Source: Oscillospiraceae bacterium (GTDB lineage: Bacteria > Bacillota > Clostridia > Oscillospirales > Oscillospiraceae). Taken from it: DNA of 64,000 nucleotides. Positions 4,539 through 26,154 of this stretch are shown here, piece after piece. The DNA lies in contig JAFYAU010000030.1 of assembly GCA_017540565.1 (NCBI GenBank), positions 1 to 64,000 on the forward strand. Reading direction: 5' to 3'. A model generated the notes under the pieces. It saw only the letters and a list, made by a program, of their open reading frames with translations, ran no database searches and was not told the origin of the DNA. The translations under genes and the position numbers were made by a program. Positions within the stretch are counted from its first letter, which is position 1; each line of letters starts with the position of its first letter.

Positions 4539-7034
4539 TTACCAGCGGTTCTGTTCCGTACGGTGGATGATATCCAGCTGCCCGACGGGGTCGATCTCGA
4601 CGAAGTAGGCAACGTAGCTGGCGACGCGGACGAGCAGGTCCTGGTATTCCTCCGGGTGTTCGATCGCGGCGTGCAGCATCTTGCTGTCGATCACGTTGAA
4701 CTGGACGTGGTAGTCGCCCAGGGCCTCGAACGCGCGCAGGTAGGCGACGAAGCGGTCGACGTCCTCGTCCGTGGCGAAGATCTGGGGCGTCAGGCGCTGA
4801 TTGAGCAGCGTGCCCATCTGGAACCGGGCGGAGGGCAGCTTGGACATGGAGCGGAGCACGGCCGTGGTCCCCTCGACGTCCCGGCCCTGGGTCGGGGACA
4901 TGGCGTCCGCCATGGGCGTGCCCTTTTTGAAGCCGTCGGGCAGGGCGCCGACCGCCATGCCGGCGGTGACGGCGGAATTGCCGAGGCAGGACGCGCCGCG
5001 GAACGTGCCTCCGTAGGAGGGGAAGTTGTCGCGGTTTTTGTTGCAGCGGTCGATCGCGTCGTACCAGATGTTCTGCACGGCAGCGACCCAGCCGTCGGCA
5101 TAGTCGTTGTCGTTGCCGTATTTGGGCACGTCGTGGATCGCCATCTGGCGGAGGCGCTCATAGCCGACCCAGTCGGCGTCCAGAGCGGCGAGCATCTCGT
5201 CCCAGGTGACCTTCCGGTCGCGGTAGATCAGGGAGTCGATGACGGCCATGGCGTCGCCCGTGTTCGCGCTGCCGGCCAGCATGAGGCCGAAGGAATTGCT
5301 CCAGCAGCCGCCCCGGATGAGGTCGGTGCCCTTCTGCAGCGGCCCCTCCAGCAGGCAGGAGGTGAACGGGGCCTCGTTCCACTCGGCCTGCACGGACATC
5401 TCCACCTTGATGGCGCGGCACAGGATATCCATGAAGTAGTCGTTCTGGATCCGGTAGGCGGCCAGGAACTCGTCCATCGTTTTGAAATCCCGCGGGTCGC
5501 CGGTCTCGGGACCGAGCTGTTCGCCGCAGATGGAGCACCGGCCGTTGTGCAGCGTTAGATCGAGGATCTTACCGATGTTGAAGATGCCGGACGCGGAATG
5601 CTGCTGCGTGATGTGCGGCATGGCGATCTCGACGCAGCCGATCACGGCGTAGTCGCGCAGGTCCTCGGGACTCATGTCCGGATAGGCGTTGTGCATCATC
5701 TCCATCGCCTTTCGGTCGCCGTAGAACTTGGGCTTGCCGCGGCCGAGGCGGACGACTTCCGCCGCCTTGCGCAGGTATTCGTACGGCGTGCCCTCCCAGA
5801 TCCGCATGGCGATCTCGGGCTGGATCAGGCCGACCTGCTCCTCCGCCTCCAGGCAGAGCATCGTGACCTCGTTGCAGGCGTCCTTCCCCTCGCGGGTCTG
5901 GCCTCCGATCAGCAGGTTCTGCGTGATCGGGAAGGCGACCTGAACGGAGGCGGAGCTGTAGTCGTACAGCTGCGTCCATTCCGCGGTCTTCACGAAGAAG
6001 CATTCCAGCATCTCCAGGGCCTGCTCCCTCGTCAGTTCCTTCCGCTCCTCGACGGATTTCACGTAGTAGGGATACATGTACTGGTCGAAGCGGCCGAAGG
6101 AATCCGCGTAGTTCATCTGCTCGCCCAGGATCAGGATCTGGGTCATCCAGACCGCCTGCAGGGCCTCCTGCCAGCTGTCGGCGGGTTCCATGGGGACCTT
6201 CTTCACGATGCGGGAGATCTCCTCCAGCTCCGCCTTCCTCTGCGGGTCGGGCTCCTTCGCGGCCATTTCGGCGGCCAGCGCGCTGTATCTGCCGCACAGG
6301 ATCTCGGCGCCCTCCAGGCTGATGAGGACGGCGTCGTAGAAATCCGCCTTCTCCTTTTTGTAGAAGCGGTTGTAATCCGCGAGATTGGCCTCGCGGTAGA
6401 ACTCGACCTGGCGCCGGATCCCGTTGAGTCCCAGTTCCAGCACCTTCTGGTAGTTGGACAGCGCGTGGCCGGCGTCGGCCCTCGTCATCAGGTCGGCGAA
6501 GTTGGGAAGGTGCGGGCACTTCGCCGTTCCGGCGAAAGCCTTCTCCCGGATCTCCTGATCGCCGCGGGCGTAGATCTCGTCCTCCATGCAGCGGCCCTTG
6601 AAGAAGGGGACGATCTGTTCGCGGATGATCTTCCGCTCCTCTTCGGAGATGTGATGCCGGTCGTTCGAACGGATCTCATAGTCGTAGACCGGATGATCCA
6701 GCTCCGCGTCCAGCTGGTTGCCCAGCAGGGAGCCGAAGATCAGGGAGGCGCGGACCTTGCTGTTGACGTTTCCGATGATCAGCTCGCCGTCGTAGATGTT
6801 CAATGTGCGCGTCTCCTGGAAACGCTTGAAGATCTGCGCCCTCTGGATGATGTGGGGGATCTTTCCGTCCGTCTCGCGGTGCACGTCGATCTCGACCAGC
6901 GCGTGCTCGAGACAGATCTCCGGAGTCCGGACCGCCCGGCGGACGGCGGTCTTCACACGCTCGGAGCAGGAGCGTTCGAAGAATTCCTGCCAGCTGCCGA
7001 CCGTCGACAGGTCTTTCGGGATGCATGTGTTCAT
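4539..7034 (-). CDS. Glycyl-radical enzyme homologue with Ser in place of the radical Gly
   Basis: An 831-residue protein of the pyruvate formate-lyase/diol-dehydratase superfamily. The ATG at 7034 is preceded by AAAGGAG at good spacing. The thiyl-radical motif is intact: GCVE at about residues 466-469 (Cys467, Glu469). The C-terminal glycyl-radical loop, normally RVxGY, reads RVASY. Codon AGC at 4617-4619 makes residue 806 Ser, and a single base change would restore GGC (Gly). The rest of the loop (AYFVEID) is family-like. As read, it could not form a glycyl radical at the usual site. The order after GCVE (IAMPHITQQHSASG) does not match the choline, glycerol or hydroxyphenylacetate enzymes I know, so the substrate is unassigned. 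Its activase gene lies 114 bp upstream on the same strand. Confidence 0.88.
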   Translation of the reverse strand: MNTCIPKDLSTVGSWQEFFERSCSERVKTAVRRAVRTPEICLEHALVEIDVHRETDGKIPHIIQRAQIFKRFQETRTLNIYDGELIIGNVNSKVRASLIFGSLLGNQLDAELDHPVYDYEIRSNDRHHISEEERKIIREQIVPFFKGRCMEDEIYARGDQEIREKAFAGTAKCPHLPNFADLMTRADAGHALSNYQKVLELGLNGIRRQVEFYREANLADYNRFYKKEKADFYDAVLISLEGAEILCGRYSALAAEMAAKEPDPQRKAELEEISRIVKKVPMEPADSWQEALQAVWMTQILILGEQMNYADSFGRFDQYMYPYYVKSVEERKELTREQALEMLECFFVKTAEWTQLYDYSSASVQVAFPITQNLLIGGQTREGKDACNEVTMLCLEAEEQVGLIQPEIAMRIWEGTPYEYLRKAAEVVRLGRGKPKFYGDRKAMEMMHNAYPDMSPEDLRDYAVIGCVEIAMPHITQQHSASGIFNIGKILDLTLHNGRCSICGEQLGPETGDPRDFKTMDEFLAAYRIQNDYFMDILCRAIKVEMSVQAEWNEAPFTSCLLEGPLQKGTDLIRGGCWSNSFGLMLAGSANTGDAMAVIDSLIYRDRKVTWDEMLAALDADWVGYERLRQMAIHDVPKYGNDNDYADGWVAAVQNIWYDAIDRCNKNRDNFPSYGGTFRGASCLGNSAVTAGMAVGALPDGFKKGTPMADAMSPTQGRDVEGTTAVLRSMSKLPSARFQMGTLLNQRLTPQIFATDEDVDRFVAYLRAFEALGDYHVQFNVIDSKMLHAAIEHPEEYQDLLVRVASYVAYFVEIDPVGQLDIIHRTEQNRW

Positions 7035-7148: not shown

Positions 7149-8045
7149 TCATACGATCCTGCAGCGGATGCCCAGCCGTTCGACCAGCTCCCGCTTCCGC
7201 TCCAGTTCGTCCGCACCGAGGGGCTCCAGGTCCAGGACGGGGGAGACCCGGCCGACGGACCGGTAGCGGCTGGCGCCGAGATTGTGGAAATTGATCAGGT
7301 CCAGTTCCTGCACGCAGGAGAGACCGCGCAGGAAGCCGCAGGTCGCGGTCAGGTTTTCGTCGCCGTCCGTCATGCCGGGCACCTGGACGCAGCGGATGAA
7401 GACCTTCGTCCCGTACGCGTCGACCCTGGCGAGATTCTCCAGGATCAGTTCGTTCCCGACGCCGGTCAGTTCCCGGTGCCGTACGGGATCCATGACCTTC
7501 AGATCCCAGAGGAAGAAATCTATGAAGGGAAGCAGACGCTCGACCGACGCCCACGGGACGAAGCCCGTCGTGTCGACTCCGATGGAGACGCCCGCCTCCT
7601 TCAGGAGACGGTAAAGCTCCTCCATGCCGTCGTCGACGTGCATCAGGGGCTCGCCCCCGGAGAAGGTCACGCCGCCCCCGGAGTAGTCGAAGAAGATCCT
7701 GTCCTTCAGGATCTCCGCGGCCAGCGCCTCCGGCGTCCAGTCGGCCCCGATGACGGTGAGCGCCTTCGGCGCGCAGACCTCCGTGCAGGCAAAGCAGCGC
7801 GTGCACAGGGAGCGGTCGACTTCCGACGCCCCGTCCCCGGGAGAGACGGCGCCGGAAGGGCAGACGGAAACGCAGGCGCCGCAGCCGATGCAGCGCTCGG
7901 GGATCCGGCGCAGCTCGAAGGCGGTGTCCTGGGACTCCGGCGTGGAGCACCAGACGCAGCGGAGCGGGCAGCCCTTGAAGTGAACGAGCGTTCGTATACC
8001 CGGCCCGTTGCGGTTCGTCATTCTGGAGATCTCGAATACTCTCAT
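7149..8045 (-). CDS. Glycyl-radical enzyme activating enzyme (radical SAM)
   Basis: A 298-residue radical-SAM activase. The ATG at 8045 is preceded by GGAGG and begins MRVFEISRMTNRNGPG, as in the family. The CxxxCxxC motif that binds the SAM-cleaving 4Fe-4S cluster is C26, C30, C33. A ferredoxin-like insert with two more 4Fe-4S sites follows (C52, C55, C58, C62 and C81, C84, C87, C91), typical of activases for diol-dehydratase-type enzymes. GGGVTFSGGEP is the SAM-binding loop. It should abstract a hydrogen from the partner enzyme's glycine. The partner encoded next door has Ser at that position, although this activase looks complete. Confidence 0.93.
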   Translation of the reverse strand: MRVFEISRMTNRNGPGIRTLVHFKGCPLRCVWCSTPESQDTAFELRRIPERCIGCGACVSVCPSGAVSPGDGASEVDRSLCTRCFACTEVCAPKALTVIGADWTPEALAAEILKDRIFFDYSGGGVTFSGGEPLMHVDDGMEELYRLLKEAGVSIGVDTTGFVPWASVERLLPFIDFFLWDLKVMDPVRHRELTGVGNELILENLARVDAYGTKVFIRCVQVPGMTDGDENLTATCGFLRGLSCVQELDLINFHNLGASRYRSVGRVSPVLDLEPLGADELERKRELVERLGIRCRIV

Positions 8046-8190: not shown

Positions 8191-9507
8191 ATGAAGGAAG
8201 AAACCGTAAACAGGATACTGTCGGCCTATGAGGCGGCGGCCGGGAAGCCGTGCCGCTACCAGGCCGCCCGGGAGGACCCGGCGGCGCCTCCCTGCGCCTT
8301 CTGCCGCCTGATCCAGCGCTCGCCCGCGGGCGCCGCGGCATGCCGCGCGCAGCAGCTGGCGGCATGCGAGAGGGCGGAGGAGAGGGACGGATACCATGTC
8401 CTGGCCTGCCACGCGGGCCTGGTGGAATGGGTCGTGCCGGTGCGGGAGAAGGGACGGCTGGAGGGTTGGTTCCATGCAGGATTCGCCGTGAGCAGCGGGG
8501 ACGGCCGGGAGAAGATCGAGCTCCAGGAGAAGGAGTATCTGGCCAGGTTCGGCGCGGAGGAGGAGGAATTCCGGGAGGCGCTGGACGGGACGGACGTGGT
8601 GTCCAGCGGGAAATTCGCCGCCTACGCCTCGCTCCTGGCGGCGCTGACCCGCATCTGCGGGGAGAGCGAGGCGCCGGACACGAGAAGGACCGCCCCGGAC
8701 ATCCGGGACATCGTCTACTTCGAAGGCACTGACGCGGGCTCCGGGCCTCGCGGCAGGTCTCTGTCCTCCTACGTCTTCCAGAGGGAACTGGACCGGGAGG
8801 AGATGACGGCGTTCTGGAAGGGGATCGAAGTCCGGGCGTCCGCCGTCTTCACCGAGCTCATGTCCGGCCGCGGCATCGCCGCCAGGCAGCTGTTCGAGGA
8901 GATCATGGCCCTGGCCTATGCGGAGGAGGATCCCGAGACGGCAAAGATCAGCGCGGAGATGCTCTTCCACATCATCTTCCTGAAATACTACGGCAAGGAC
9001 GTGTACGACGTCCGCTTCTACCGGCTGGCCTTCGAGACGATCCGCAGGCTGTTCGAAGCCGACGGCATGGACAGGATCCGGCGGATCATGAACGCGAGCT
9101 TCGACGAGATGTACGGTTTCTACAACGCCGGAGCGGAAAAGGAGAGCGGGAGCCGGGCGGTGCAGGTGATCATGGATTACCTGGAAAGGAACTACGCGTC
9201 GGACATCCGCGTCGCGGACGCCGCGGCAGCCGCGTATCTGTCACCGGATTACGCCAGCAGGCTCGTGAAAAAGGAGACGTCCTTCACGATCAAATGGGCG
9301 CTGAACCAGATCCGAATGCGGCACGCGCAGGAGCTGCTCGTGCAGACGAGGATGCCGGTGGCGGAGATCAGCCGCGCCGTGGGGTACCGGGACACCCGGG
9401 GATTCTACAAGATGTTCACCAAGCACTTCGGCATCACGTGCACGGAGATGCGCAGCCGGTTCTCAGGCGTGGAACGGGACGGAGGCGGGGGAACGGGGAA
9501 GAAATGA
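8191..9507 (+). CDS. PocR-domain AraC-family transcriptional regulator
   Basis: A 438-residue protein; the ATG at 8191 follows GGGAGG. Residues about 1-150 form a PocR ligand-binding domain with Cys-rich CAFCRLIQRSPAGAAAC and a conserved YHVLACHAGLVEWVVPV stretch. A central helical region follows. A C-terminal AraC-type double helix-turn-helix (about 340-430) includes VAEISRAVGYRDTRGFYKMFTKHFG. PocR domains regulate 1,2-propanediol and similar diol-dehydratase systems in other bacteria. It is divergent from the activase/glycyl-radical enzyme pair, so I infer it activates those genes in response to the substrate or a product. Confidence 0.9.
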   Translation: MKEETVNRILSAYEAAAGKPCRYQAAREDPAAPPCAFCRLIQRSPAGAAACRAQQLAACERAEERDGYHVLACHAGLVEWVVPVREKGRLEGWFHAGFAVSSGDGREKIELQEKEYLARFGAEEEEFREALDGTDVVSSGKFAAYASLLAALTRICGESEAPDTRRTAPDIRDIVYFEGTDAGSGPRGRSLSSYVFQRELDREEMTAFWKGIEVRASAVFTELMSGRGIAARQLFEEIMALAYAEEDPETAKISAEMLFHIIFLKYYGKDVYDVRFYRLAFETIRRLFEADGMDRIRRIMNASFDEMYGFYNAGAEKESGSRAVQVIMDYLERNYASDIRVADAAAAAYLSPDYASRLVKKETSFTIKWALNQIRMRHAQELLVQTRMPVAEISRAVGYRDTRGFYKMFTKHFGITCTEMRSRFSGVERDGGGGTGKK

Positions 9508-9604: not shown

Positions 9605-9671
9605 GCATCCGCCGGACGGCCGCCCGCTCAGCCGGAAATGACTATGCTTCACATGGAAAGAGGTGGTTCCC

Positions 9672-10103
9672 TTGAGCTTTTCCTACGATGAGATCAGAGA
9701 GTTCATGCTTGCGTATTTCCCCAGTTACGCGGAGAAGGCGCAGGATCCCGTGCTGCAGCCGGAGATGGACCGGTTCTACGCGCCGGATATCTCCTTCGAC
9801 AACGGCATGAACAGCCGGGAGCAGTGGTACCGCGCCTGCCTCAGCCATCCCGCGGTCGTCGACGTACTGACCGTCGAGAGGCTGTGCATCGACGAGAGGA
9901 ACCTGTTCGTCAGCGCGATGGTGACGTCCCGGCCGACGGAGAGGGAGACGGGAAAGGTGCTGCTGGAGATCGGCATGAACGCCTTCTACCGGCTGAAGGC
10001 CGACGAGGAAGGCCGGCTGAAGATCGCGCGGATCGACGTGTTCCTGGAGAGCGATCCCCGGAAGGCCGCGCAGATGTTCGAGATCTACGCCCCGAAACGC
10101 TGA
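9672..10103 (+). CDS. SnoaL/NTF2-like protein
   Basis: A 143-residue protein. The TTG at 9672 is preferred over an upstream in-frame GTG because AAAGAGGTGG ends just upstream of it. The pattern of N-terminal helices, a phenylalanine/tyrosine-rich pocket (DRFYAPDISFDNGMNSREQWY) and a curved beta-sheet end (LLEIGMNAFYRLKADE) suggests an NTF2-like/SnoaL fold. Such proteins act as small isomerases, hydrolases, hydratases or ligand carriers, so the reaction is open. It is flanked by two operator-like palindromes and has its own promoter, placing it in the putative TetR regulon. Confidence 0.65.
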   Translation: MSFSYDEIREFMLAYFPSYAEKAQDPVLQPEMDRFYAPDISFDNGMNSREQWYRACLSHPAVVDVLTVERLCIDERNLFVSAMVTSRPTERETGKVLLEIGMNAFYRLKADEEGRLKIARIDVFLESDPRKAAQMFEIYAPKR

Positions 10104-10211: not shown

Positions 10212-11888
10212 ATGAAATCCATTAGGAAGATCCTTTGCGTCCTTCTGGCCCTCATGATGGTCCTTGCGCTGTGTTCCTGCGGAGGCAAGAGCGGCGGAGA
10301 GACCGCCCCGGCGCCGGGCGGCGACAAAGAGCCCGCAAAGACGGACGACGGCGGCAAGGTATCCGAACAGACGGATGACGGCGGCGCGGCCTCCCAGGCG
10401 GCCGACGGCGGCGCGGCGGTCGAGACCGCGGCCAAGCCGGAGACGGTCACCATCGGCGTGACCGGCTGGCTCGGACGCTTCCTGGACGGCGCGGAGCCCT
10501 CTCCGAACCTGACCGCCTGCGACGGTGTCTACGATTCCCTGTTCCTGATCGACCAGTCCACCGCGCAGCCCTATTCCTACATCCTGTCCGACTGGGGCTA
10601 CGAGGATGAACTGACCTTCAAGATGACGCTGAAGGACGGCATCACGTTCGCCAACGGCGACGTCGCCACCGGCAGCGACCTGCTGTTCAGCGTCCTGCAG
10701 CACATCGAGAGAGGCGACATCAGCGCATCCTCCCTCGGCGATCTGGATCTCGACAACTGCAAGGCGGACGGCAATGTCGTCACGATCAAGTGGAAAGACC
10801 CCTGGGGCCCCGGCCTCACCAGCCGAAACATCTACCTGTTCGACGAGTCCTGGTGCCGCGAGAAGGGCTGGGATTCCTACGACTGGTATGAAGCCCCGAA
10901 CGGCTCCGGTCCCTTCAAGGTCACCGAGTACGTGACGGACGACCACATCACGCTGGAACTGCGCGACGACTACTGGAACGCCGCCAACGAGAAGTTCCAG
11001 GTCAAGAAATGGATCATCAAGTACTATGCCGACCAGTCCACCATGTACATGGCGCTGGAAAAGGGCGAGATCGCCATGGCCGGCCTGTCCAGCACGGACT
11101 ACACCCGTCTGGTCAACGACACCAGCTCCAAACTGAAGATCAAGACCCGCGCGATGGGCACGACGCTGAACTTCTTCTTCGGCGCCGTCAACAACCCGAT
11201 CTTCCAGGACAAGGCGGTCCGCCAGGCCATTGCCCACGGCGTCGACTGGTCCGCCATCGGCAAGCTTGCCTACGGCGACCTGTACGAGCCCGCGGACTCC
11301 ATCGTATCCACGAAGTCCCCGTTCTACAAGCCGCAGGGAGTCTATGAGTACAATCCCGATCTGGCCAAGCAGATCCTGGCCGACGCCGGCTACAAGGACG
11401 GCGACATCAAGATCCACCTGTTCGAGATGAACGGCGCGCACAAGGACTTCGCGGAAGCCTTCGACTATTACTGCGAGGCGATCGGCATCCAGGTCGATCT
11501 GGAATTCGGCGACGTCACGACGGGCCTGATGACCTGGATGCAGGACGGCGGCAGCGACGCCGGCTGGTACAACAACATCAACGGCGTCGCCAACGGCGAT
11601 CCGCACGAATCCCTGAACTGCTTCTACATCAAGGGCTTCACCTGGTGCTGGTGGTATCAGCCCGAGGTCCAGGAGAGGTTCCTGAAGGCCGCCCACACGA
11701 CGGACGAGGCGAGCCGCAGCGAGCAGTACGCCGAACTGCAGAAGCTGGCGTATGACGAATACATCATCGTTCCCATCTGCGAGTGCATGTCCGTTATCGG
11801 CTACGATCCCGAAGTGTTCAGCGAAGCCGAGATGAACGCCTACACCTACACGAGCGCCTACACGCTGCTGCACGCGCTTTCCTGGTAA
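10212..11888 (+). CDS. ABC transporter substrate-binding lipoprotein, peptide/nickel (SBP family 5) type
   Basis: A 558-residue lipoprotein with AAAGGAG before its ATG. The signal peptide ends in lipobox LCSC with acylated Cys23. A low-complexity Gly/Ala/Asp/Lys linker (about 24-78) follows, then a family-5 extracellular binding domain (DppA/OppA type) with LTFKMTLKDGITFANGDVATGSD as the family signature. It would capture the substrate outside the membrane and deliver it to the permeases encoded next. Family-5 proteins bind peptides, opines, nickel chelates or sugars, so the ligand cannot be named. Tryptophan- and tyrosine-rich segments (FTWCWWYQPE) may line the pocket. Confidence 0.93.
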   Translation: MKSIRKILCVLLALMMVLALCSCGGKSGGETAPAPGGDKEPAKTDDGGKVSEQTDDGGAASQAADGGAAVETAAKPETVTIGVTGWLGRFLDGAEPSPNLTACDGVYDSLFLIDQSTAQPYSYILSDWGYEDELTFKMTLKDGITFANGDVATGSDLLFSVLQHIERGDISASSLGDLDLDNCKADGNVVTIKWKDPWGPGLTSRNIYLFDESWCREKGWDSYDWYEAPNGSGPFKVTEYVTDDHITLELRDDYWNAANEKFQVKKWIIKYYADQSTMYMALEKGEIAMAGLSSTDYTRLVNDTSSKLKIKTRAMGTTLNFFFGAVNNPIFQDKAVRQAIAHGVDWSAIGKLAYGDLYEPADSIVSTKSPFYKPQGVYEYNPDLAKQILADAGYKDGDIKIHLFEMNGAHKDFAEAFDYYCEAIGIQVDLEFGDVTTGLMTWMQDGGSDAGWYNNINGVANGDPHESLNCFYIKGFTWCWWYQPEVQERFLKAAHTTDEASRSEQYAELQKLAYDEYIIVPICECMSVIGYDPEVFSEAEMNAYTYTSAYTLLHALSW

Positions 11889-11906
11889 GCAGCGGAAAAC
11901 ATCATT

Positions 11907-11925
11907 CGTTTACCTGACTGGTAAA
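11907..11925. repeat. Small inverted repeat after the binding-protein gene
   Basis: TTTACC and GGTAAA are separated by five bases about 20-35 bp after the stop. It could be an RNA stem or a protein site; I see no further support. Confidence 0.3.
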
Positions 11926-11941
11926 ACCTGAGCGATAACCG

Positions 11942-11982
11942 AAGGGCGGGAGAGCGGGAGAGACTCCTGTTCTCCTGCCCTT
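11942..11982 (+). terminator. Intercistronic hairpin between binding protein and permease genes
   Basis: AAGGGCGGGAGA (11942-11953) pairs with TCTCCTGCCCTT (11971-11982) with one G-U pair. No U-run follows. Such structures commonly keep the binding-protein mRNA more abundant than the permease mRNA. Confidence 0.55.
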
Positions 11983-12026
11983 AGTAAAATCCGGTACTGA
12001 AACAGACTGAGGGGAGGCATGATCCT

Positions 12027-13007
12027 TTGTCCAGATATATCATCAAACGACTGCTGTGGATGATCCCCGTCATCTTAGGTGTGCTGGTTATCGTGTTCAC
12101 GATCAGTTACTTTACGCCCGGTGACCCGGCCATGTCCATGCTGGGCACGAACTATACCGAGGAGAGCTATGTCGCTCTGAGAGAAAAGCTGGGGCTGGAC
12201 AAGCCGTTTCTCGTCCAGCTGTGGAACTATCTGTGGGGCCTTATCTCCCGGGGCGATCTCGGGACTTCGTACATTGGAAGCGTGCCGGTAGCGACCGAGG
12301 TCGTCCACCGCTTCCCCATCACGTTCAAGCTCGGCATCATGAGCGTAATCGTAACGACCGTGATCGGGGTGCCGCTCGGCATCCTCTCGGCGACGAAGCA
12401 GTATTCCGTCGCCGACTATACGGTCACCAGTTTCGCGCTGATCATAGCGGCGATCCCGAACTATGTTTTCGCCCTTCTGGGCCTGCTGCTTTTCGCGGTC
12501 AAGCTCGGATGGCTGCCGGTCTCCGGCGTGGACAGCTGGAAGAGCTGGGTCATGCCGGTGGCGGCGAACTCATTCGGGTTTATCGCGGTCATCGTCCGCA
12601 TGACGCGGACAAGTATGCTGGAAGTGATTCGGTCAGACTACATCCGCACGGCACGGTCCAAGGGACTGCGCGAGAGGCTCGTCATCTGGAAGCACGCGTT
12701 CCCGAACGCCCTGATCCCGATCGTCACCGTCATCGGAACGCAGCTCAGCTTCATCATGGCAGGTTCGATCATCGTCGAGACGATCTTCTCGATCCCCGGC
12801 ATGGGCACCTACATCATGACGGGCATCAATTCGCGCGACTATCCCATCATCAACGGGACCGTCCTGCTCCTGTCGCTGTGCATCTGCGGCATGAACCTGA
12901 TCGTGGATATTGCGTACGCATTCATCGACCCGAGGATCAAGGCGCAGTATGAATCGGGGAGAAAACGCGTAAAGAAAGCGAAAATTCCGGGAAAGGCGGT
13001 GCCGTGA
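12027..13007 (+). CDS. ABC transporter permease, DppB type
   Basis: A 326-residue permease with six predicted membrane helices. The start is TTG, placed 9 bases after GGGGAGG. The N-terminal RYIIKRLLWMIPVILGVLV and FTPGDPA are DppB/OppB signatures. The EAA-loop region (ARSKGL, HAFPNALIPIVT) contacts the ATPases. It forms the transmembrane channel with the next gene's product. The stop overlaps the next start. Confidence 0.93.
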   Translation: MSRYIIKRLLWMIPVILGVLVIVFTISYFTPGDPAMSMLGTNYTEESYVALREKLGLDKPFLVQLWNYLWGLISRGDLGTSYIGSVPVATEVVHRFPITFKLGIMSVIVTTVIGVPLGILSATKQYSVADYTVTSFALIIAAIPNYVFALLGLLLFAVKLGWLPVSGVDSWKSWVMPVAANSFGFIAVIVRMTRTSMLEVIRSDYIRTARSKGLRERLVIWKHAFPNALIPIVTVIGTQLSFIMAGSIIVETIFSIPGMGTYIMTGINSRDYPIINGTVLLLSLCICGMNLIVDIAYAFIDPRIKAQYESGRKRVKKAKIPGKAVP

Positions 13008-13915
13008 TGATCATCACCATGCTTACGGGCGGCGGCGAAGAGCAGATCGAGAGTCTGGAAAACGCGGCCCGCAGACACACACAGGCCGGCGACGTGTTCC
13101 GCCGCCTGCTGAACAACAAGCTCGGCATGATCGGCCTCTGCATCGTCATCGTCCTTCTGTTCCTGACGATCTTTTCCGGTGTCGTGACGAAGTTCCCGTA
13201 TGAGGAGCAGGATTTCGGAAACCGGTTCCAGTTCCCGGATCCCGTTCACATCATGGGAACGGACAACTTCGGGCGGGACATCTGGTCCCGGCTCGTATAC
13301 GGCGGCAGGATCTCTCTCCTGGTCGCCGTCATCTCCGTGGCGATCTCCCTGACCTGCGGCGTCATCCTCGGCTCCGTCGCCGGCTATTTCGGCGGCAAGG
13401 TCGACATCACCATCATGCGTATCCTGGACATCCTGATGGCGATCCCCGGCCTGCTGATGGCCATCGCGGTGTCGGCCATGCTGGGCTCCGGCCCGGTCAA
13501 GACCGCCATGGCGATCTCGATCTCCGGCATCCCGGCCTCGGCCAGGCTGATCCGGTCGACCGTCATGTCGATCAAGAGCAACGAATACGTGGAGGCGGCC
13601 GTCGCGACCGGTTCCACGAACCGGAGGGTCATCTTCAGGCACATCCTGCCGAACGTCATCGCGCCGATCATCGTGAACTCCACGCTGGGCATCGGCGGCA
13701 ACATCATGGCGATCTCCGGCCTGAGCTTCATCGGGCTGGGCGTTCAGCCGCCCACGCCGGAATGGGGATCCATCCTCTCCTCCGGCAGGCCCTATCTGCG
13801 CGATTTCTGGCCGATGATCGTGTTCCCGTCGCTGTTTATCATGCTGACGCTGTTCGCATTCAACCTCCTGGGCGATGCGCTTCGCGACGCGCTCGACCCC
13901 AAACTGAAGAAGTGA
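13007..13915 (+). CDS. ABC transporter permease, DppC type
   Basis: A 302-residue permease partner. I prefer the ATG at 13007 over an overlapping GTG at 13004 because it sits at better distance from AAAGGCGG. An OppC-type N-terminal helix (LGMIGLCIVIVLLFLTIFSGVV) precedes the GTDNFGRDIWSRLVYGGRISL motif diagnostic of DppC/OppC. The EAA loop reads VATGSTNRRVIFRHILPNV. It is translationally coupled to the DppB-like gene and followed after 13 bp by the first ATPase gene. Confidence 0.93.
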   Translation: MIITMLTGGGEEQIESLENAARRHTQAGDVFRRLLNNKLGMIGLCIVIVLLFLTIFSGVVTKFPYEEQDFGNRFQFPDPVHIMGTDNFGRDIWSRLVYGGRISLLVAVISVAISLTCGVILGSVAGYFGGKVDITIMRILDILMAIPGLLMAIAVSAMLGSGPVKTAMAISISGIPASARLIRSTVMSIKSNEYVEAAVATGSTNRRVIFRHILPNVIAPIIVNSTLGIGGNIMAISGLSFIGLGVQPPTPEWGSILSSGRPYLRDFWPMIVFPSLFIMLTLFAFNLLGDALRDALDPKLKK

Positions 13916-13928
13916 GGGGCGTGACGAG

Positions 13929-14897
13929 ATGAATCTGCTTGAAATCAAAGATCTGTCCATCCATTACGTTACAAAAGAAGGGACCTTCAAATCCGTCAAC
14001 CATGTGAATCTGGAGCTGGAGGAAGGGGAGACGATCGGGCTCGTCGGAGAGACCGGCGCCGGAAAAACGACCACGGCGCTCGGCATCCTGCGCCTGCTGC
14101 AGTCCCCTCCGGCGAAGATCGTCAGCGGAGAGATCCTGTTCAAAGGGACGGACCTGCTCAAGGTCTCCGAGGAGGAGATGCAGAAGATCCGCGGCAACGA
14201 CATCGCCATGATCTTCCAGGATCCCATGACGGCGCTGAACCCGATCATGCGCGTGGGCGACCAGATCACCGAGGTCATCGAGCTCCATAACGACTGCACG
14301 CACGAGGAAGCGCGCAAGAGGATGAGGAACATGCTCGAACTGGTCGGCATCAACGTGGAGAGAGCCAGGGAGTTCCCGCATCAGTTCTCCGGCGGCATGA
14401 AGCAGCGCGTCGTCATCGCCATGGCGCTGGCCTGCAACCCGCATCTGCTGATCGCGGACGAACCCACGACGGCCCTGGACGTGACGATCCAGGCTCAGGT
14501 GCTCGAGATGATGAACGAACTGAAGGAGAAGCTTGGCACCTCCATGATCCTGATCACGCACGACCTTGGCATCGTGGCCTCCAACTGCGACAAGGTGGCC
14601 ATCATGTACGCCGGGGAGATCGTGGAATACGGTTCTCTCGAACAGATATTCCATCACATCAGCCATCCCTACACGGAAGGCCTGTTCAATTCCATCCCGA
14701 GCCTGGACAAGGACGTGGACAGACTGAAGCCGATCAAGGGCCTGATGCCGGATCCGTCCGCACTGCCCGAGGGATGCAAGTTCAATCCGCGCTGTCAGTA
14801 CTGCACCGAGAAGTGCAGGACGACGGAACCGCCTCTGTATGAGATCCAGCCGGGACATCTGGTGAGATGCCTGCGGTACGGAGAGGAGGGACAGTGA
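13929..14897 (+). CDS. ABC transporter ATPase, DppD type
   Basis: A 322-residue ATPase. Walker A is GETGAGKTT (about 36-44), the signature is FSGGMKQR and Walker B is [12 protein letters not shown]. The C-terminal oligopeptide-transporter domain carries a Cys cluster ([12 protein letters not shown] plus a later Cys) as in family members with an Fe-S site. It powers uptake together with the DppF-like protein encoded one base later. Confidence 0.94.
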
Positions 14898-14898
14898 C

Positions 14899-15861
14899 AT
14901 GGCAGAGCTTCTGCGTGTGGAACACCTGAAAAAGTATTTCCCGACGCCGGCCGGCATGCTCCACGCGGTGGACGACGTCTCGTTCACGGTGGAAACGGGT
15001 ACGACCCTCGGCGTCGTCGGCGAGAGCGGCTGCGGCAAATCCACGCTGGGGCGGACCGTCCTGCGTCTGCTCAATCCCACCGACGGCAAAATCATCTTCG
15101 ACGGCCGCGACATCACGAAGATCAAGGGAAAGGAACTGCAGAACCTCCGGCGCGAGATGCAGATCATCTTCCAGGATCCGTTCTCGTCCCTGAACCCGAG
15201 ATTCTCCGTCTCCGAGCTGATCTCGGACCCGCTGAGGACCTTCAAGCTGTGCAGGACCGCCGCGGACCGGAAGAAGAGAGTCTATGAGCTGATGGACCTC
15301 GTCGGACTGGCCCGCCGGTTCGAAAACAGCTATCCGCACGAACTGGACGGCGGCCGCCGGCAGCGCATCGGCATCGCGCGCGCCCTGTCCCTCGATCCGA
15401 AGTTCATCGTATGCGACGAGCCGGTATCCGCCCTGGACGTCTCCATCCAGGCGCAGATCCTGAACCTCCTGCAGGACCTTCAGGAATCCGTCGGCCTGAC
15501 CTACATCTTCGTGACCCACGACATGTCCGTCGTGCGCCACATCTCCGACGACATCCTGGTCATGTACGTCGGCGCCATGCTGGAGAAGAGCCCGTCCAAG
15601 GAACTGTTCAAAAAGCCGCTGCACCCGTACACGAAGGGCCTGCTGTCGGCGATCCCCATTCCCAGCATCGACGTGCCGAAGACGAAGGTGGTGCTCCAGG
15701 GCGAGCTGTCTTCGCCCATCGAGCCCAAGAAGCAGTGCCGCTTCTGCCCCCGCTGCCCGTACGCGGACGAGCGGTGCCAGAACGAGGTGCCGGCGTATGA
15801 GGAGGTCCTCCCGAACCACTTCGTGGCCTGCCACAAGGTGCGGGAGATCAACGGCCTGTAA
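14899..15861 (+). CDS. ABC transporter ATPase, DppF type, with variant signature LDGGR
   Basis: A 320-residue ATPase. Walker A is GESGCGKST and Walker B is FIVCDEPVSALD. The signature motif, usually LSGGQ, reads LDGGRRQRIG. The C-terminal part has the Cys motif CRFCPRCPYADERC. The variant signature occurs in some DppF-like subfamilies to my knowledge, so the protein is probably active. It is the last gene of the transporter operon; a weak hairpin followed by TATTTTTC precedes the next operator. Confidence 0.92.
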   Translation: MAELLRVEHLKKYFPTPAGMLHAVDDVSFTVETGTTLGVVGESGCGKSTLGRTVLRLLNPTDGKIIFDGRDITKIKGKELQNLRREMQIIFQDPFSSLNPRFSVSELISDPLRTFKLCRTAADRKKRVYELMDLVGLARRFENSYPHELDGGRRQRIGIARALSLDPKFIVCDEPVSALDVSIQAQILNLLQDLQESVGLTYIFVTHDMSVVRHISDDILVMYVGAMLEKSPSKELFKKPLHPYTKGLLSAIPIPSIDVPKTKVVLQGELSSPIEPKKQCRFCPRCPYADERCQNEVPAYEEVLPNHFVACHKVREINGL

Positions 15862-19501: not shown

Positions 19502-19538
19502 CCGGTATCCGCTTCCCAAACTGACAGAGGTGAAACAA

Positions 19539-21116
19539 ATGGGAACGCCTGTATATGAAAGAAAACAGTGGAAAGCGCTGAATTACACGACCTACGCGGA
19601 GGCCAAGGAGAAATTCAAATGGTCCGACCGCTGGGAAGTGTTCGACGGCACGAAGGACAACTTCAACATCACGCACGAGTGCGTGGACCGTCACCCGAAG
19701 GACGAATATGCCCTGCGGATCAAGTTCGATACCGGAGCGACGGAGAGCTACACCTTCGGGCAGCTGTCCCGGTATACCTCCCAGTTCGCGAACATGCTCG
19801 TCCGCCTGGGCATCGGGGAGGGGGACCGCGTGGCGGTCATGCTCTTCCCGTCCATCGAGTTCTACGTGACGCTCTACGGCGTATACAAGCGCGGCGCCGT
19901 CCTGATCCCCTGCTTCCCGCTCTTCGGGGCGGACGCGATCAATTTCCGCATCCGGAACGGGAAGGTCACCTCCCTGGTGACGACCCGGGACAATCTGCAT
20001 CTGGTCGATCCGAAGCTGGTCGAAGAGCAGAACATCCGGTTCATCTTCGCGGAGGATCTGATCGCGGACCTGGAAAAGGAGAGCGGCGAGTTCACGCCGC
20101 ACACGAACTATAAGGATCTGTGCATGATCCAGTTCTCCAGCGGCACGACGGGCACGCCGAAGCCGATCCTGTACACGCACGGCGCGATCTCGGTCGCGGC
20201 GGTCGTCATCCGGTTCGCCGGAGGTCTGAAGTGGGACGACAACTACTTCTGCTGCTCGTCTCCCGGCTGGGGGCACGGGATCTGGTACGGGACGATCAGT
20301 CCGATGATCTATGGCAAGTTCGCCGGCGCCTATTCCGGCAAGTTCGACGGAAAGACCTGCCTGGACGCGCTGGAGGAATTCGAGATCACCAACATCGCCG
20401 GAATCGCGGCGCATTTCCGCATCATCCTGGAGGCGGGGGACATCGGGAAAAGGAACCTGAAGCTGAGATTCCTCACCTACTCCGGAGAGAAGATGTCCAA
20501 TGAGCTGATCGATGCGATCCAGAGGGAACTCGGCCTGGTCCCGTATACCCAGTTCGGCACCACGGAAGTGGGCCCGATCTGCGTGGATTACGGCGGATTC
20601 GACGACTGGGTGGTCAAGCCGGGCAGCGTCGGGAAACCGATGGTCGGCGGTCTGGACGTCGTGATCCTGGACGACGACGACAACGAACTGCCGCCCGACA
20701 CGATCGGGCAGGTCGCGCTGGTGAAGAAGGGCGAGTACGTGAAGATCGGCGACGAGGCCTATTACGACTCCGACGGCTACTTCTGGTATGTGGGCCGCAA
20801 GGACGACGTGATCATCTCCAACGGCTACACCATCGGGCCGATCGAGGTGGAGGCCACGGTCAACAACCATCCGGCGGTCCTGGAATCCGCCGTCGTCGGA
20901 GCGAAGGACAAAGAGCGCGGCACGATCGTGAAGGCATATATCGTTCTCAACGAGGGATACGAACCGTCCGATGAACTCGCGTCCGAGATCCAGCAGTATG
21001 TGAAGAACCAGCTGAGCAAGCATGAGTATCCGAGAGCCATCGAATTCATCGACGAGCTCCCGAAGACGCCGGACGGCAAGCTGAAGAGGAAAATACTGAA
21101 GGAACGGAGCCAGTGA
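19539..21116 (+). CDS. AMP-forming acyl/aryl-CoA ligase
   Basis: A 525-residue adenylate-forming enzyme. The ATG at 19539 follows AGAGGTGA; an in-frame GTG overlaps that ribosome binding site and is rejected. The ATP-binding loop is FSSGTTGTPKP (about 200-210). TQFGTTEVG is the substrate-side motif and YFWYVGRKDDVI the hinge. The C-terminal catalytic Lys lies in TPDGKLKRK. It activates a carboxylic acid to its CoA thioester via an acyl-AMP. The overall arrangement is like benzoate-CoA or medium-chain ligases, but the substrate is open. It sits inside the catabolic operon between the UGSC-like and DapA-type genes. Confidence 0.92.
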   Translation: MGTPVYERKQWKALNYTTYAEAKEKFKWSDRWEVFDGTKDNFNITHECVDRHPKDEYALRIKFDTGATESYTFGQLSRYTSQFANMLVRLGIGEGDRVAVMLFPSIEFYVTLYGVYKRGAVLIPCFPLFGADAINFRIRNGKVTSLVTTRDNLHLVDPKLVEEQNIRFIFAEDLIADLEKESGEFTPHTNYKDLCMIQFSSGTTGTPKPILYTHGAISVAAVVIRFAGGLKWDDNYFCCSSPGWGHGIWYGTISPMIYGKFAGAYSGKFDGKTCLDALEEFEITNIAGIAAHFRIILEAGDIGKRNLKLRFLTYSGEKMSNELIDAIQRELGLVPYTQFGTTEVGPICVDYGGFDDWVVKPGSVGKPMVGGLDVVILDDDDNELPPDTIGQVALVKKGEYVKIGDEAYYDSDGYFWYVGRKDDVIISNGYTIGPIEVEATVNNHPAVLESAVVGAKDKERGTIVKAYIVLNEGYEPSDELASEIQQYVKNQLSKHEYPRAIEFIDELPKTPDGKLKRKILKERSQ

Positions 21117-21152
21117 CCGCACCGGCGGAATCTAGAGAAGGAGATGAGGCAT

Positions 21153-22214
21153 TTGGCACTGCCGTATACAAAATCCGAAGCAAAGGCATGGGCAAAGAAG
21201 AACTTCAAGGGCCTGGAGGCGCCGATCTTCCCGTCCTATTCACCGGACCTGAACGAACTGGATGAAGACGGCATCCGCTGGGACGTCAACCACATCATCG
21301 CCAACGGGATGATGTCCATCATGATCGCTCCCGAAGCGAGCGCCATGACGCGCGAGGAGCGCAAGCGGTTCGTCGCCATCGTCAACGACGAGGCGAAGGG
21401 CAGGGTCATCACTTCGGTGGGAGCCCTGCTGGACACCGTGGAGGAGAACATCGAGATCATGCGGGTCCATGAGGAGACCGGCGGCACGATGGCGATGCTG
21501 GGGCACCCGATCATGTACGATCCCGAGTCTCCCGAGGAGCTCTACCGGAACTACAAATACATGGCGGATTCCACCGACCTGGCCCTCAATTTCTATCCGG
21601 GGCGCCTGCGCATGAAGCGCTTCCATCCCAGCGGGTGGCCGATGGAGATCCTTCCGATGATCGCGGACATCCCCAACGTGACGGCGATGAAATTCGCCGG
21701 AAGCACCCCGCTGGTGCAGACGGTCCAGGCGTTCCGCATGATCGGAGACCGCGTGCTGGTGTCCGACCCGATGCCCGACATGTGGTTCATCACGATGCCG
21801 CAGTACGGGCAGCAGTGGGCCGGAGCCGGGCCGTTCTACATGAGCCAGACGCCGGAGGACCAGCGGAGCGTCCGCCTGTTCAACCTGCTGTACGAAGGAA
21901 AGATCGACGAGGCGTACGAGGAGTACTGGGACAGCGTGAGAAGGACCCGCGGAATCACGGGCGGAGCGGCCCACGGGATGGATTCCTATCTGGAGACCGG
22001 CATGGTGAGCCCGGTCGTGACGAAGTACGGCCACTGGTGTCTCGGCGGAAACGGCGGCCTGATGAGGCAGCCGGCCCGCAGGCTCTATGACTTCACCCGG
22101 GAGGGGATCAAGGCCGGGATCCGGGCCATGGGCTTCACTCCGCGCGAGAACGAGGAGGAGTTCTTCGTGGGCCGCTGCAACTACGCGAAGGGCTACCGCC
22201 TGAAGAGATACTGA
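21153..22214 (+). CDS. DapA-family (class I aldolase/lyase) protein, copy 1
   Basis: A 353-residue protein. The start is TTG at 21153, nine bases after AAGGAG; the ATG at 21144 abuts the ribosome binding site. It has the (beta/alpha)8 fold pattern of dihydrodipicolinate synthase/N-acetylneuraminate lyase. Schiff-base Lys180 lies in NVTAMKFAG and the catalytic Tyr148 in NFYPGR. The C-terminal extension (EEEFFVGRCNYAKGYRLKRY) is longer than in true DapA and is shared with copy 2. Relatives include aldolases and hydratase-aldolases that release pyruvate and an aldehyde. It is followed after 24 bp by the MaoC-like gene. Confidence 0.87.
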   Translation: MALPYTKSEAKAWAKKNFKGLEAPIFPSYSPDLNELDEDGIRWDVNHIIANGMMSIMIAPEASAMTREERKRFVAIVNDEAKGRVITSVGALLDTVEENIEIMRVHEETGGTMAMLGHPIMYDPESPEELYRNYKYMADSTDLALNFYPGRLRMKRFHPSGWPMEILPMIADIPNVTAMKFAGSTPLVQTVQAFRMIGDRVLVSDPMPDMWFITMPQYGQQWAGAGPFYMSQTPEDQRSVRLFNLLYEGKIDEAYEEYWDSVRRTRGITGGAAHGMDSYLETGMVSPVVTKYGHWCLGGNGGLMRQPARRLYDFTREGIKAGIRAMGFTPRENEEEFFVGRCNYAKGYRLKRY

Positions 22215-22238
22215 GCGCGGGAAGAAGGAGAAACGAAT

Positions 22239-23387
22239 ATGTCTGAAACAGCAGCCAAAATGGCGGAAGGGTCCTTTACCCCGGAACTGATCGCCGAGAT
22301 GGAGTCCAAGAAGGGGCTGAAGCTCCGCGTCGAGAACGCCCTGTTCAACGAGTACGCGACCGAGGACAACATCCGGAAATACGTCAACGGGATCGGCGAC
22401 ATGAATCCCCTGTACCGGGACAAGGAGTACGCGGCGAAGACGCGCTACGGCACGATCATCGCCCCGCCGGCGTTCATCTTCAGCGTCCTGGGCGGCGTGC
22501 AGTTCGGCTGGCGCGGCCTCGCCGGATTCCATTCGGCCAGCGACCTGTATTTCTTCAAGCCCATCAGGGCGGGGGACAAGATCACGCCCGAGGAGACCTA
22601 TCTCGGATTCGACGGGCCCCGCGACAGCAAATTCGCGGGAAAAACGGTCTTCGACTGGTTTGAGGACAAGTATTTCAATCAGGACGGGGAGTGCGTCGCC
22701 CGCATGAAGCGCCTGATCATCCGGGCCGACCGGAAGAAGAGCCGCGAAAAGGGGAAATACTCCTCCATCCAGCTCCCGCATCCGTGGACGGACGGGGAAG
22801 TGGACGCGATCGAGAAGGAGATCCTGGCGTACAACCGCACGGCGATCCGGGGGAGCACGCCCCGCTACTGGGAGGACGTGGAGATCGGCGAGGAGACGCC
22901 GGAGCTGATCAAGGGACCGATCGGGACGACCGACATGGTCGCCGCCGTCGTCGCGGGACTGGCGCCCGCCCGGCTGACCGCCCACGGGGAGACCGTGGAG
23001 CAGCACGAGAAGCAGCCGGCCTGGTTCTTCCGGGATCCGGGCACCAAAGCCTGGGAGCCCATCTTCGCCGTCCATTACAACCTCGACGGCGCCAAAGCCA
23101 TGGGCCTGCCGTACCCCTACGACATCGGCGTGCAGCGCCACTGCTGGCTGGCGGAGGCGATGACCGACTGGATGGGGGACGACGGCTGGCTCAGGAGGTG
23201 CTACGCGGAATACCGGAACTTCGTGTTCCTTTCCGACGTGATCCGCATCAGGGGCACGGTCACGGACAAGTTCGTGGACGAAGACGGCAGCCACGTCGTC
23301 AGGCTCAAGACGTCGGCCATGAATCAGCGCGGGGCGGACGTCATGCCCGGAGAATCGGAGATCGTCCTTCCGTCCCGGACAGAATAA
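22239..23387 (+). CDS. MaoC-like double-hotdog protein
   Basis: A 382-residue protein with two hotdog-type halves. The first (about 30-165) has an N-terminal FAS1-dehydratase-like pattern: GDMNPLYRDKEYA then GTIIAPPAFI. The second (about 195-380) has a second hotdog-like pattern ending VFLSDVIRIRGTVTDKF. MaoC enzymes hydrate enoyl-CoA or dehydrate 3-hydroxyacyl-CoA. The classic catalytic Asp/His pair is not obvious as I read it, so the activity is tentative. The gene lies between the two DapA-type genes in the same operon, which suggests it acts on a CoA intermediate of the pathway. Confidence 0.78.
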   Translation: MSETAAKMAEGSFTPELIAEMESKKGLKLRVENALFNEYATEDNIRKYVNGIGDMNPLYRDKEYAAKTRYGTIIAPPAFIFSVLGGVQFGWRGLAGFHSASDLYFFKPIRAGDKITPEETYLGFDGPRDSKFAGKTVFDWFEDKYFNQDGECVARMKRLIIRADRKKSREKGKYSSIQLPHPWTDGEVDAIEKEILAYNRTAIRGSTPRYWEDVEIGEETPELIKGPIGTTDMVAAVVAGLAPARLTAHGETVEQHEKQPAWFFRDPGTKAWEPIFAVHYNLDGAKAMGLPYPYDIGVQRHCWLAEAMTDWMGDDGWLRRCYAEYRNFVFLSDVIRIRGTVTDKFVDEDGSHVVRLKTSAMNQRGADVMPGESEIVLPSRTE

Positions 23388-23425
23388 TGTGAATGAAAAA
23401 ACTATTATAATGGGAGGAACATACA

Positions 23426-24481
23426 ATGCCTGAATTCACTAGATCGGAAGCAAAAGCCTGGACAAAAGCCAATCTGATCGGCCTGGAGGCTCCGGTATTT
23501 CCGTCCTTCACCCCGGACCTGCTGGAACTGGACGAGGACGGTATCCGTTACGACGTCAACCACATCATCGCCAACGGCATGGTCTCCGTCCTCATCGCCC
23601 CCGAGGGGACCGGCATGACCCACGACGAGATCAAGCGCTTCATCGAGATCGTCAACGATGAGGCCAAGGGAAAGATCCACACTTCGTTCTCCGCCGTCCT
23701 GGATACGACGGAAGAGAACATCGAGATGATGAACTACCACTCCAAGTGCGGCGGTTCCATGGCGATGCTCGGCCATCCCATCATGTACGATCCGCTCAGC
23801 GTGGAGGAGCTGTTCGCCCAGTACAAGTACATGTGCGACAACACGGACCTGGCCCTGGTGTTCTATCCCGGACGTCTGAAGACCAAGAGATTCGACATCT
23901 CCGGCTTCCCCAGAGAGCTTCTGGACCGCATCGCCGACATCCCCAACGTCACGGCCATGAAGATGCAGGGCGGCTGCAGCCTGACCCAGACCATCGAGTG
24001 CTTCCACATCATGGGCGACCGGATCTGCGTGGCCGACCCGATGTCCAGCGCCTGGTTCTGCACGATCCCGACCTACGGCCAGCAGTGGGCCGGCGCCGGT
24101 CCGTTCTACGGCACGCAGGTCCCCGAGAATCCGCGTCACGTCAAGCTGTTCAACGCGCTGCGCAACAACGACCTGGACGAGGCCTTCAAGATCCATTATG
24201 AACTGATGGCCGGCATGTCCGGCTCCGGCATGGCGTTCAACAACGTCAACTACCCCGAGACCGGCATCCTCGTCGCCTACGTCGACAAGTACTGCCACTG
24301 GTGCTGCGGCGGCAACGGCGGCATCCTCCGTCAGCCGACCGGCCGTCTGTACGACTATCAGAAGCAGGCCATCCGCGCCGGCATCCGCGCGCTCGGCATC
24401 GAGCCCAGAGAGAACGAGGAAGAGTTCTATATCGGCCGCATGAACTACGCCAAGGGCTACCGCATGAAGAGGTACCTGTGA
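23426..24481 (+). CDS. DapA-family (class I aldolase/lyase) protein, copy 2
   Basis: A 351-residue paralogue of the product at 21153, colinear end to end. Schiff-base Lys179 is in NVTAMKMQG and Tyr147 in VFYPGR. It shares the long C-terminal tail EEEFYIGRMNYAKGYRMKRY. Pocket residues differ between the copies (KFAGSTPL versus KMQGGCSL), so the two may act on different substrates or steps. RBS GGGAGGA. Strong hairpins follow the gene. Confidence 0.87.
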   Translation: MPEFTRSEAKAWTKANLIGLEAPVFPSFTPDLLELDEDGIRYDVNHIIANGMVSVLIAPEGTGMTHDEIKRFIEIVNDEAKGKIHTSFSAVLDTTEENIEMMNYHSKCGGSMAMLGHPIMYDPLSVEELFAQYKYMCDNTDLALVFYPGRLKTKRFDISGFPRELLDRIADIPNVTAMKMQGGCSLTQTIECFHIMGDRICVADPMSSAWFCTIPTYGQQWAGAGPFYGTQVPENPRHVKLFNALRNNDLDEAFKIHYELMAGMSGSGMAFNNVNYPETGILVAYVDKYCHWCCGGNGGILRQPTGRLYDYQKQAIRAGIRALGIEPRENEEEFYIGRMNYAKGYRMKRYL

Positions 24482-24574: not shown

Positions 24575-25447
24575 ATGAATCGATGCGAAGTCGACAGCAT
24601 CCTTGCCGGTGCCATCGACATGCACGTGCATGCCGGCCCGGTCCCGGGACCGTACCGCCAGGATGCCGTGGAGATCGCCCAGCAGCAGAAGGAATACGGC
24701 ATGGGCGGCGTTGTCTTCAAGGATACCGGTTATCTGACCGCCCCCATTGCGGACATGATCAACAGCCGTCTGCCGGATTTCACCGTGTACGGCAGCATCA
24801 CGCTCAACAACGTCCACGGCGGGCTGAATCCCGAGGCGGTGGAGACGGCCGCGCGCTTCGGGTCCAAAGTCGTGTGGATGCCGACGCAGTCCTCGGAGAA
24901 CTCCATGTCCAAGTACCGGGAACTGGGATATCCGATGCCCGGCACGGGGATCACCCTCGTGGATGAGCGCGGGGATCTGCGGCCGGAGATGGAGCCGATC
25001 CTGCGGACCATCAGGGAGCACGGCATGATCCTTGCCACCGGGCACATCTCGCCCGAGGAGACGATCGCCGTCGTGACCCGTGCCCGCGAGATGGGGATCG
25101 AGAAGATCATCCTGACCCATCCGTTCCAGGCGGACGTGGTGGAGAGCAGGACGATGACGCTGGAGCAGGTGAAGGATATGGTCCGTCTCGGAGCGTATGT
25201 GGAGCACACGTTCGTGTTCCATCTCCCGACGGAATTCAGCGTGAATCCCGCCGTGACGGCGGACCTGATACGCGAGATCGGCCCGGAGCACACCATCATC
25301 AGCACGGATCTCGGACTGTTCACGCACAATCCGACGCCGGCGGAGGGAATGTGGCTCTGCGTCTCGTCCCTTCTGCAGCAGAAGATCCCGGCCGAGGATA
25401 TCCGCAGGATGTGCCGCGACAACCCGGTCAGACTGCTGGAGGCGTAA
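24575..25447 (+). CDS. DUF6282 family metal-dependent hydrolase-like protein
   Basis: A 290-residue protein. The N-terminal AIDMHVHAGPVPGPY has the HxH metal-ligand motif of amidohydrolase-type TIM barrels. Later candidate ligands include ATGHISPEE, LTHPF and STDLG. The family (DUF6282) is uncharacterised. In this operon it may open a ring, cleave an amide or ester, or act on an aldol product; this is inference. It lies between DapA copy 2 and the second TetR gene. Confidence 0.8.
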   Translation: MNRCEVDSILAGAIDMHVHAGPVPGPYRQDAVEIAQQQKEYGMGGVVFKDTGYLTAPIADMINSRLPDFTVYGSITLNNVHGGLNPEAVETAARFGSKVVWMPTQSSENSMSKYRELGYPMPGTGITLVDERGDLRPEMEPILRTIREHGMILATGHISPEETIAVVTRAREMGIEKIILTHPFQADVVESRTMTLEQVKDMVRLGAYVEHTFVFHLPTEFSVNPAVTADLIREIGPEHTIISTDLGLFTHNPTPAEGMWLCVSSLLQQKIPAEDIRRMCRDNPVRLLEA

Positions 25448-26108: not shown

Positions 26109-26154
26109 TCCCCGGCAGGGGACCGGCTCATGCAATCGAAAAGGAGTGGTTATT

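Follow-up and report, generated by a model that had tools for sequence, protein, structure and literature searches.

A predicted serinyl radical enzyme and its cognate activase in a conserved gene cluster of an Oscillospiraceae bacterium

The protein encoded at positions 4539–7034 of the window, a 64,000-nucleotide stretch of an Oscillospiraceae bacterium genome, is most probably a functional serinyl radical enzyme (SRE), a reading to which we assign a probability of about 0.88. According to this reading, its activase would generate an α-carbon radical on Ser806, which would be passed to Cys467 as a thiyl radical and from there to a substrate, probably for a carbon–heteroatom elimination yielding an aldehyde or ketone. 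Aminoacyl radical enzymes, which have Ala, Ser or Thr at the radical position, have been described previously (Fu et al., JACS 2024, PMC11528403) and overturn the rule that the glycyl radical enzyme (GRE) superfamily needs glycine. They include 21 SREs with AGY codons, and for one of these, DaSRE of Dethiosulfatibacter aminovorans DSM 17477, EPR has shown an α-carbon Ser radical that is installed by the enzyme's own activase (PMC11528403). Membership of the DaSRE clade and the alignment of Ser806 with Ser801 of DaSRE make the window protein an SRE by every sequence test, and on these grounds it is classified as an additional member of the already described class. Neither artefact nor loss of function explains the locus, and what it adds is a signature in the activase together with a conserved gene cluster. 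Compared with the main text of the 2024 paper, new points are the signature of the SRE activases (SRE-AEs), with Asn at one anchor site and Thr or Ala at the other, the syntenic SRE cluster and the aldehyde-handling enzymes nearby.

The 831-codon open reading frame runs on the minus strand from an ATG start (7032–7034) to a TAA stop (4539–4541), and the features of the locus are collected in Table 1. Both Pfam matches of the protein are above the cut-off (PFL-like, E 5e-159; Gly_radical, E 9e-26). The AF2 model has a pLDDT of 89.2, its top PDB match is glycerol dehydratase (1r8w, TM 0.96 of target) and its fold is nearest to the GRE eliminases, i.e. the glycerol and propanediol dehydratases and CutC. 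The canonical GRE motif RVxG[FWY] is absent from the protein, where Ser806 replaces Gly in a loop that reads RVASY (sequence context LLVRVASYVAYFVEIDPVGQLDIIHRTEQNRW). An earlier note on this DNA had pointed to this AGC-encoded Ser at the radical-glycine position, to an intact GCVE site and activase gene, and to an unusual motif following GCVE, and all of these observations were borne out. The unusual motif, GC[VIT]E....PH, is common to all six Ser proteins, and its His474 is missing from every Gly and Thr homologue that was compared. Residues both invariant in and specific to the SREs are Asp118, Asp187, Trp288, Gly402, His474, Pro565 and Asn665. No frameshifts, stops, lost catalytic parts or other signs of decay were seen in the reading frame, with the Cys/Glu site and the activase intact. 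The features of the SRE class found here are thus the GRE sequence and fold, a Ser with an AGY codon, the catalytic Cys, an adjacent radical-SAM activase and a place in the DaSRE clade.

Table 1. Features of the SRE locus (positions within the window)
Feature	Position	Strand	Basis
SRE, 831 aa, GRE fold (PFL-like + Gly_radical)	4539–7034	-	ORF, Pfam, AF2, DaSRE clade
Ser806, codon AGC, radical-glycine position	4617–4619	-	Aligns with DaSRE Ser801
His474, in SRE-specific GC[VIT]E....PH	5613–5615	-	6/6 SREs
GCVE, catalytic Cys467 and Glu469	5628–5639	-	Sequence comparison
Cognate radical-SAM SRE-AE, 298 aa, ferredoxin-type insert	7149–8045	-	Pfam, NCBIfam TIGR02494
Activase Gly156, SRE-AE specific; Ala/Cys and others elsewhere	7578–7580	-	Activase comparison
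Activase Thr35, equivalent of PFL-AE Asn38, second anchor	7941–7943	-	Alignment
Activase Asn13, equivalent of PFL-AE Asp16	8007–8009	-	Alignment; Asn in 5/5 SRE-AEs
PocR/AraC-type regulator, divergent from SRE-AE	8191–9507	+	Pfam PF10114, PF12833
Small protein without Pfam match, 50% identity in G065 SRE cluster	9663–10103	+	
Oligopeptide-type ABC importer: binding protein (10212–11888), two permeases, two ATPases	10212–15861	+	
Two tandem UGSC-family proteins, 590 and 589 aa	15942–19501	+	PF24696
AMP-dependent acyl ligase, 71% identity in G065 SRE cluster	19530–21116	+	
Two DHDPS-like aldolases (69 and 72% identity in G065 SRE cluster) with a MaoC/FAS1_DH-type hydratase (74%) between them	21144–24481	+	
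DUF6282 protein, 50% identity in G065 SRE cluster	24575–25447	+	
CoA-acylating-type aldehyde dehydrogenase	26146–27525	+	Pfam Aldedh; NCBIfam SauS/EutE-type matches under curated cut-off

The search for homologues covered relatives and 84,980 species genomes, among which close homologues occur in few places and no other GRE exceeds about 39% identity to the window protein. Five homologues with Ser at the radical position were found in four other genomes from at least two phyla: G019 (60% identity) and G065 (50%) have one each, a single Dehalococcoidia MAG has two (46–47%), and the fifth is DaSRE itself (45%). The loop reads RVAS[YF] in all five, with AGC or AGT codons, and their frames are open except for assembly N-runs in both Dehalococcoidia copies. 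In the D. aminovorans homologue the Ser is residue 801, in agreement with the published numbering of DaSRE (PMC11528403). When close homologues were checked for Ser, as the earlier note had proposed, the residue was found in all six clade members, indicating a real variant class, and the cognate activases are retained. A motif census of all loci fetched at that stage, before the Thr loops turned up, gave 138 distinct loops with Gly and 6 with Ser, and since all 6 belong to one clade the Ser is not there by chance. In a quick tree computed after masking the radical column, with SH-aLRT values and without bootstrap, all six Ser proteins fall into a single clade (support 100), whose sister is a clade of Thr variants, the threonyl radical enzymes (TREs; support 87). 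Ser has been retained across an ancient clade that includes the proven DaSRE. The window genome, a 2.0-Mb draft, contains 30 Gly_radical matches, corresponding to roughly 28 GRE genes, apparently an exceptionally high number, and at least 23 of its other GRE loops have Gly. Four Gly-type GREs (L007, L009, L019 and L022) have GCVD or GCID replacing GCVE at the active site.

The activase gene lies directly upstream of the SRE gene on the same strand, and its product has the CX3CX2C and ferredoxin cysteines. The AF2 model (pLDDT 95) has the pyruvate formate-lyase activating enzyme (PFL-AE, 3cb8) as its top PDB match, with a TM of 0.90 of target. The crystal structure and simulations of PFL-AE show hydrogen bonds from Asp16 and Asn38 to the radical Gly734 (PMC9326890). 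The window activase shares the fold and CX3CX2C with PFL-AE, whereas the two anchors are replaced by Asn and Thr and a ferredoxin insert is present. Among the activases of all loci fetched, the Asp16 site is occupied by Asn in 5/5 SRE activases, DaSRE-AE included, compared with Asp in 121/121 non-SRE activases. The Asn38 site is Thr or Ala in each of the five SRE-AEs, and in the others it is Asn or Ser, with a single case of Thr. For GREs that have an activase no more than 6 kb away, Gly always pairs with Asp and Ser always with Asn. This pattern suggests a structural link between Asn in place of Asp16 and Ser as the radical residue. The nearest activase in each SRE genome is 42–49% identical to the window activase. 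Because the SRE-AEs form one clade (support 99), the Asp16-to-Asn and Gly-to-Ser changes may each have arisen just once, possibly as one coupled step, and the association between them is structural and suggestive, not statistical. Fu et al. do not refer to Asp16 or to the DGPG motif in their main text (PMC11528403).

The Thr variants provide a comparison for these changes. Scanning 300 family genomes for codons of Ala, Thr or TCN-Ser at the radical site gave 4 matches, all of them Thr, and the reversed pattern gave 0; no Ala variants fitting the pattern were found in these genomes. Thr-containing GRE homologues are of several types (L199–L202, L223–L225, L024 and L165), and G065 has a threonyl enzyme in addition to its SRE. 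TREs resemble the SREs in having a non-glycine radical residue and an adjacent activase and in forming the sister clade, but differ in the residue itself, and in two types no Glu follows the catalytic Cys (GCFI, GCAS/GCAT). Their activases keep Asp16, indicating that Asn at this site is specific to the Ser enzymes, and a change at position 16 was thus rejected as a mark of all aminoacyl radical enzymes. Position 18 of the TRE activases is mostly Tyr or Trp; this was rejected as a universal threonyl mark, L165 having Pro.

The earlier note had offered two explanations for the Ser, namely that a base change or sequence error has inactivated the enzyme, or that the protein works without a glycyl radical. 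A sequencing error or an inactivating point mutation in an ordinary GRE would require no more than one G-to-A change from GGC to AGC, and Gly is the residue in most other GREs of the window genome. Against this, five homologues at 45–60% identity have Ser, encoded by both AGC and AGT, the reading frame is otherwise free of decay, and the activase is not only retained but specifically changed, so error and decay were rejected and this origin of the Ser is extremely improbable. The second explanation stands in that no glycyl radical would be involved; it is unlikely to hold if taken to mean a radical-free protein, since DaSRE forms an α-carbon Ser radical (PMC11528403).

A GRE scaffold that has taken on a non-radical or regulatory role, its activase being kept for other targets, could be accommodated in a genome with many GREs for an activase to serve. 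Such a role is nevertheless improbable, as DaSRE, a member of the same clade, receives a Ser radical from its own activase (PMC11528403), SRE and activase are inherited together, and Cys467 and Glu469 are conserved. We consider it similarly unlikely that the activase acts on the Ser β-carbon in the manner of the anaerobic sulfatase maturases, giving formylglycine or a β-carbon radical. The attraction of this chemistry is that in an L-residue it is the side chain, and not the α-hydrogen, that occupies the pro-S position attacked by GRE activases. The stereochemical puzzle of activating an L-residue is set out in the DaSRE paper, where the hyperfine pattern of two unequal β protons was nonetheless assigned to an α-carbon radical (PMC11528403).

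For a functional SRE, the expected sequence of events starts with binding of the C-terminal loop by the activase, which would cleave S-adenosylmethionine and take the α-hydrogen of Ser806. The resulting α-carbon radical would pass to Cys467, and the thiyl radical formed there would start the chemistry on the substrate. Radical formation and thiyl relay are assigned to the window SRE by homology. The weakest step of the explanation is the eliminase-like reaction with its aldehyde or ketone product, which is inferred. The SRE resembles the GRE eliminases in fold (TM about 0.9 and above) and in the Cys/Glu site. In contrast to the SREs, these enzymes use a Gly radical, and the GHS motif of glycerol dehydratase (His281/Ser282) is not conserved in SREs. 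Neither is glycerol dehydratase Asp447 (Cys+14), and the SRE chemistry may therefore differ from diol dehydration. DaSRE has in common with the window SRE the Ser radical position, the Cys/Glu site, GC.E....PH, the NGPG activase motif and the clade, but the two are only 45% identical and the gene neighbourhood of DaSRE is unrelated, without the UGSC, DHDPS-like and MaoC-like cluster. Their substrates are likely to differ.

The neighbourhood places the SRE in a well-conserved gene cluster and so gives a handle on its pathway. The syntenic cluster shared by the window and G065, which represent two genera, comprises the SRE, the activase, the small protein, the acyl ligase, the two DHDPS-like proteins, the MaoC/FAS1_DH-type protein and the DUF6282 protein. 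A MaoC-like protein (29%) also flanks one Dehalococcoidia SRE. Aldehyde-handling enzymes of differing families lie near the SRE in 3 of the 5 SRE genomes: the aldehyde dehydrogenase in the window, an Fe-ADH and an ALDH on either side of the SRE in G019, and an AFOR at both Dehalococcoidia loci. Beside DaSRE, and on the G065 contig, which is short, no aldehyde enzyme was identified. The binding protein of the ABC importer is an SBP_bac_5 protein by Pfam, its permeases and ATPases being assigned from their ORF sequences, and the importer possibly takes up the substrate.

Bringing activase and cluster together, we tentatively propose, with less than even confidence, that Asn in place of Asp16, together with Thr/Ala in place of Asn38 and with Gly156, is the switch by which SRE activases hold L-serine and take its α-hydrogen, and that the cluster of ligase, MaoC-like, DHDPS-like and SRE genes encodes a catabolic pathway with an aldehyde intermediate produced through the Ser radical. 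If this is true, the identity of the radical residue would be readable from an activase motif. The change of Asp16 to Asn is a single residue open to substitution tests in laboratory enzymes.

The UGSC-family proteins were considered as a constant SRE partner and rejected, since they are missing from G019, Dehalococcoidia and D. aminovorans. Among 75 other GRE-type loci from the search of species genomes, including one SRE locus, 0 have large UGSC-family proteins nearby. A close full-length UGSC relative is present in 5 of the 8 genomes that carry a Ser or Thr variant versus 1 of 28 others, an association at the genome level that is only suggestive because the genomes are related. Large UGSC-family proteins are encoded near the window SRE and near several TRE loci (L200, L201, L225, L226 and L227).
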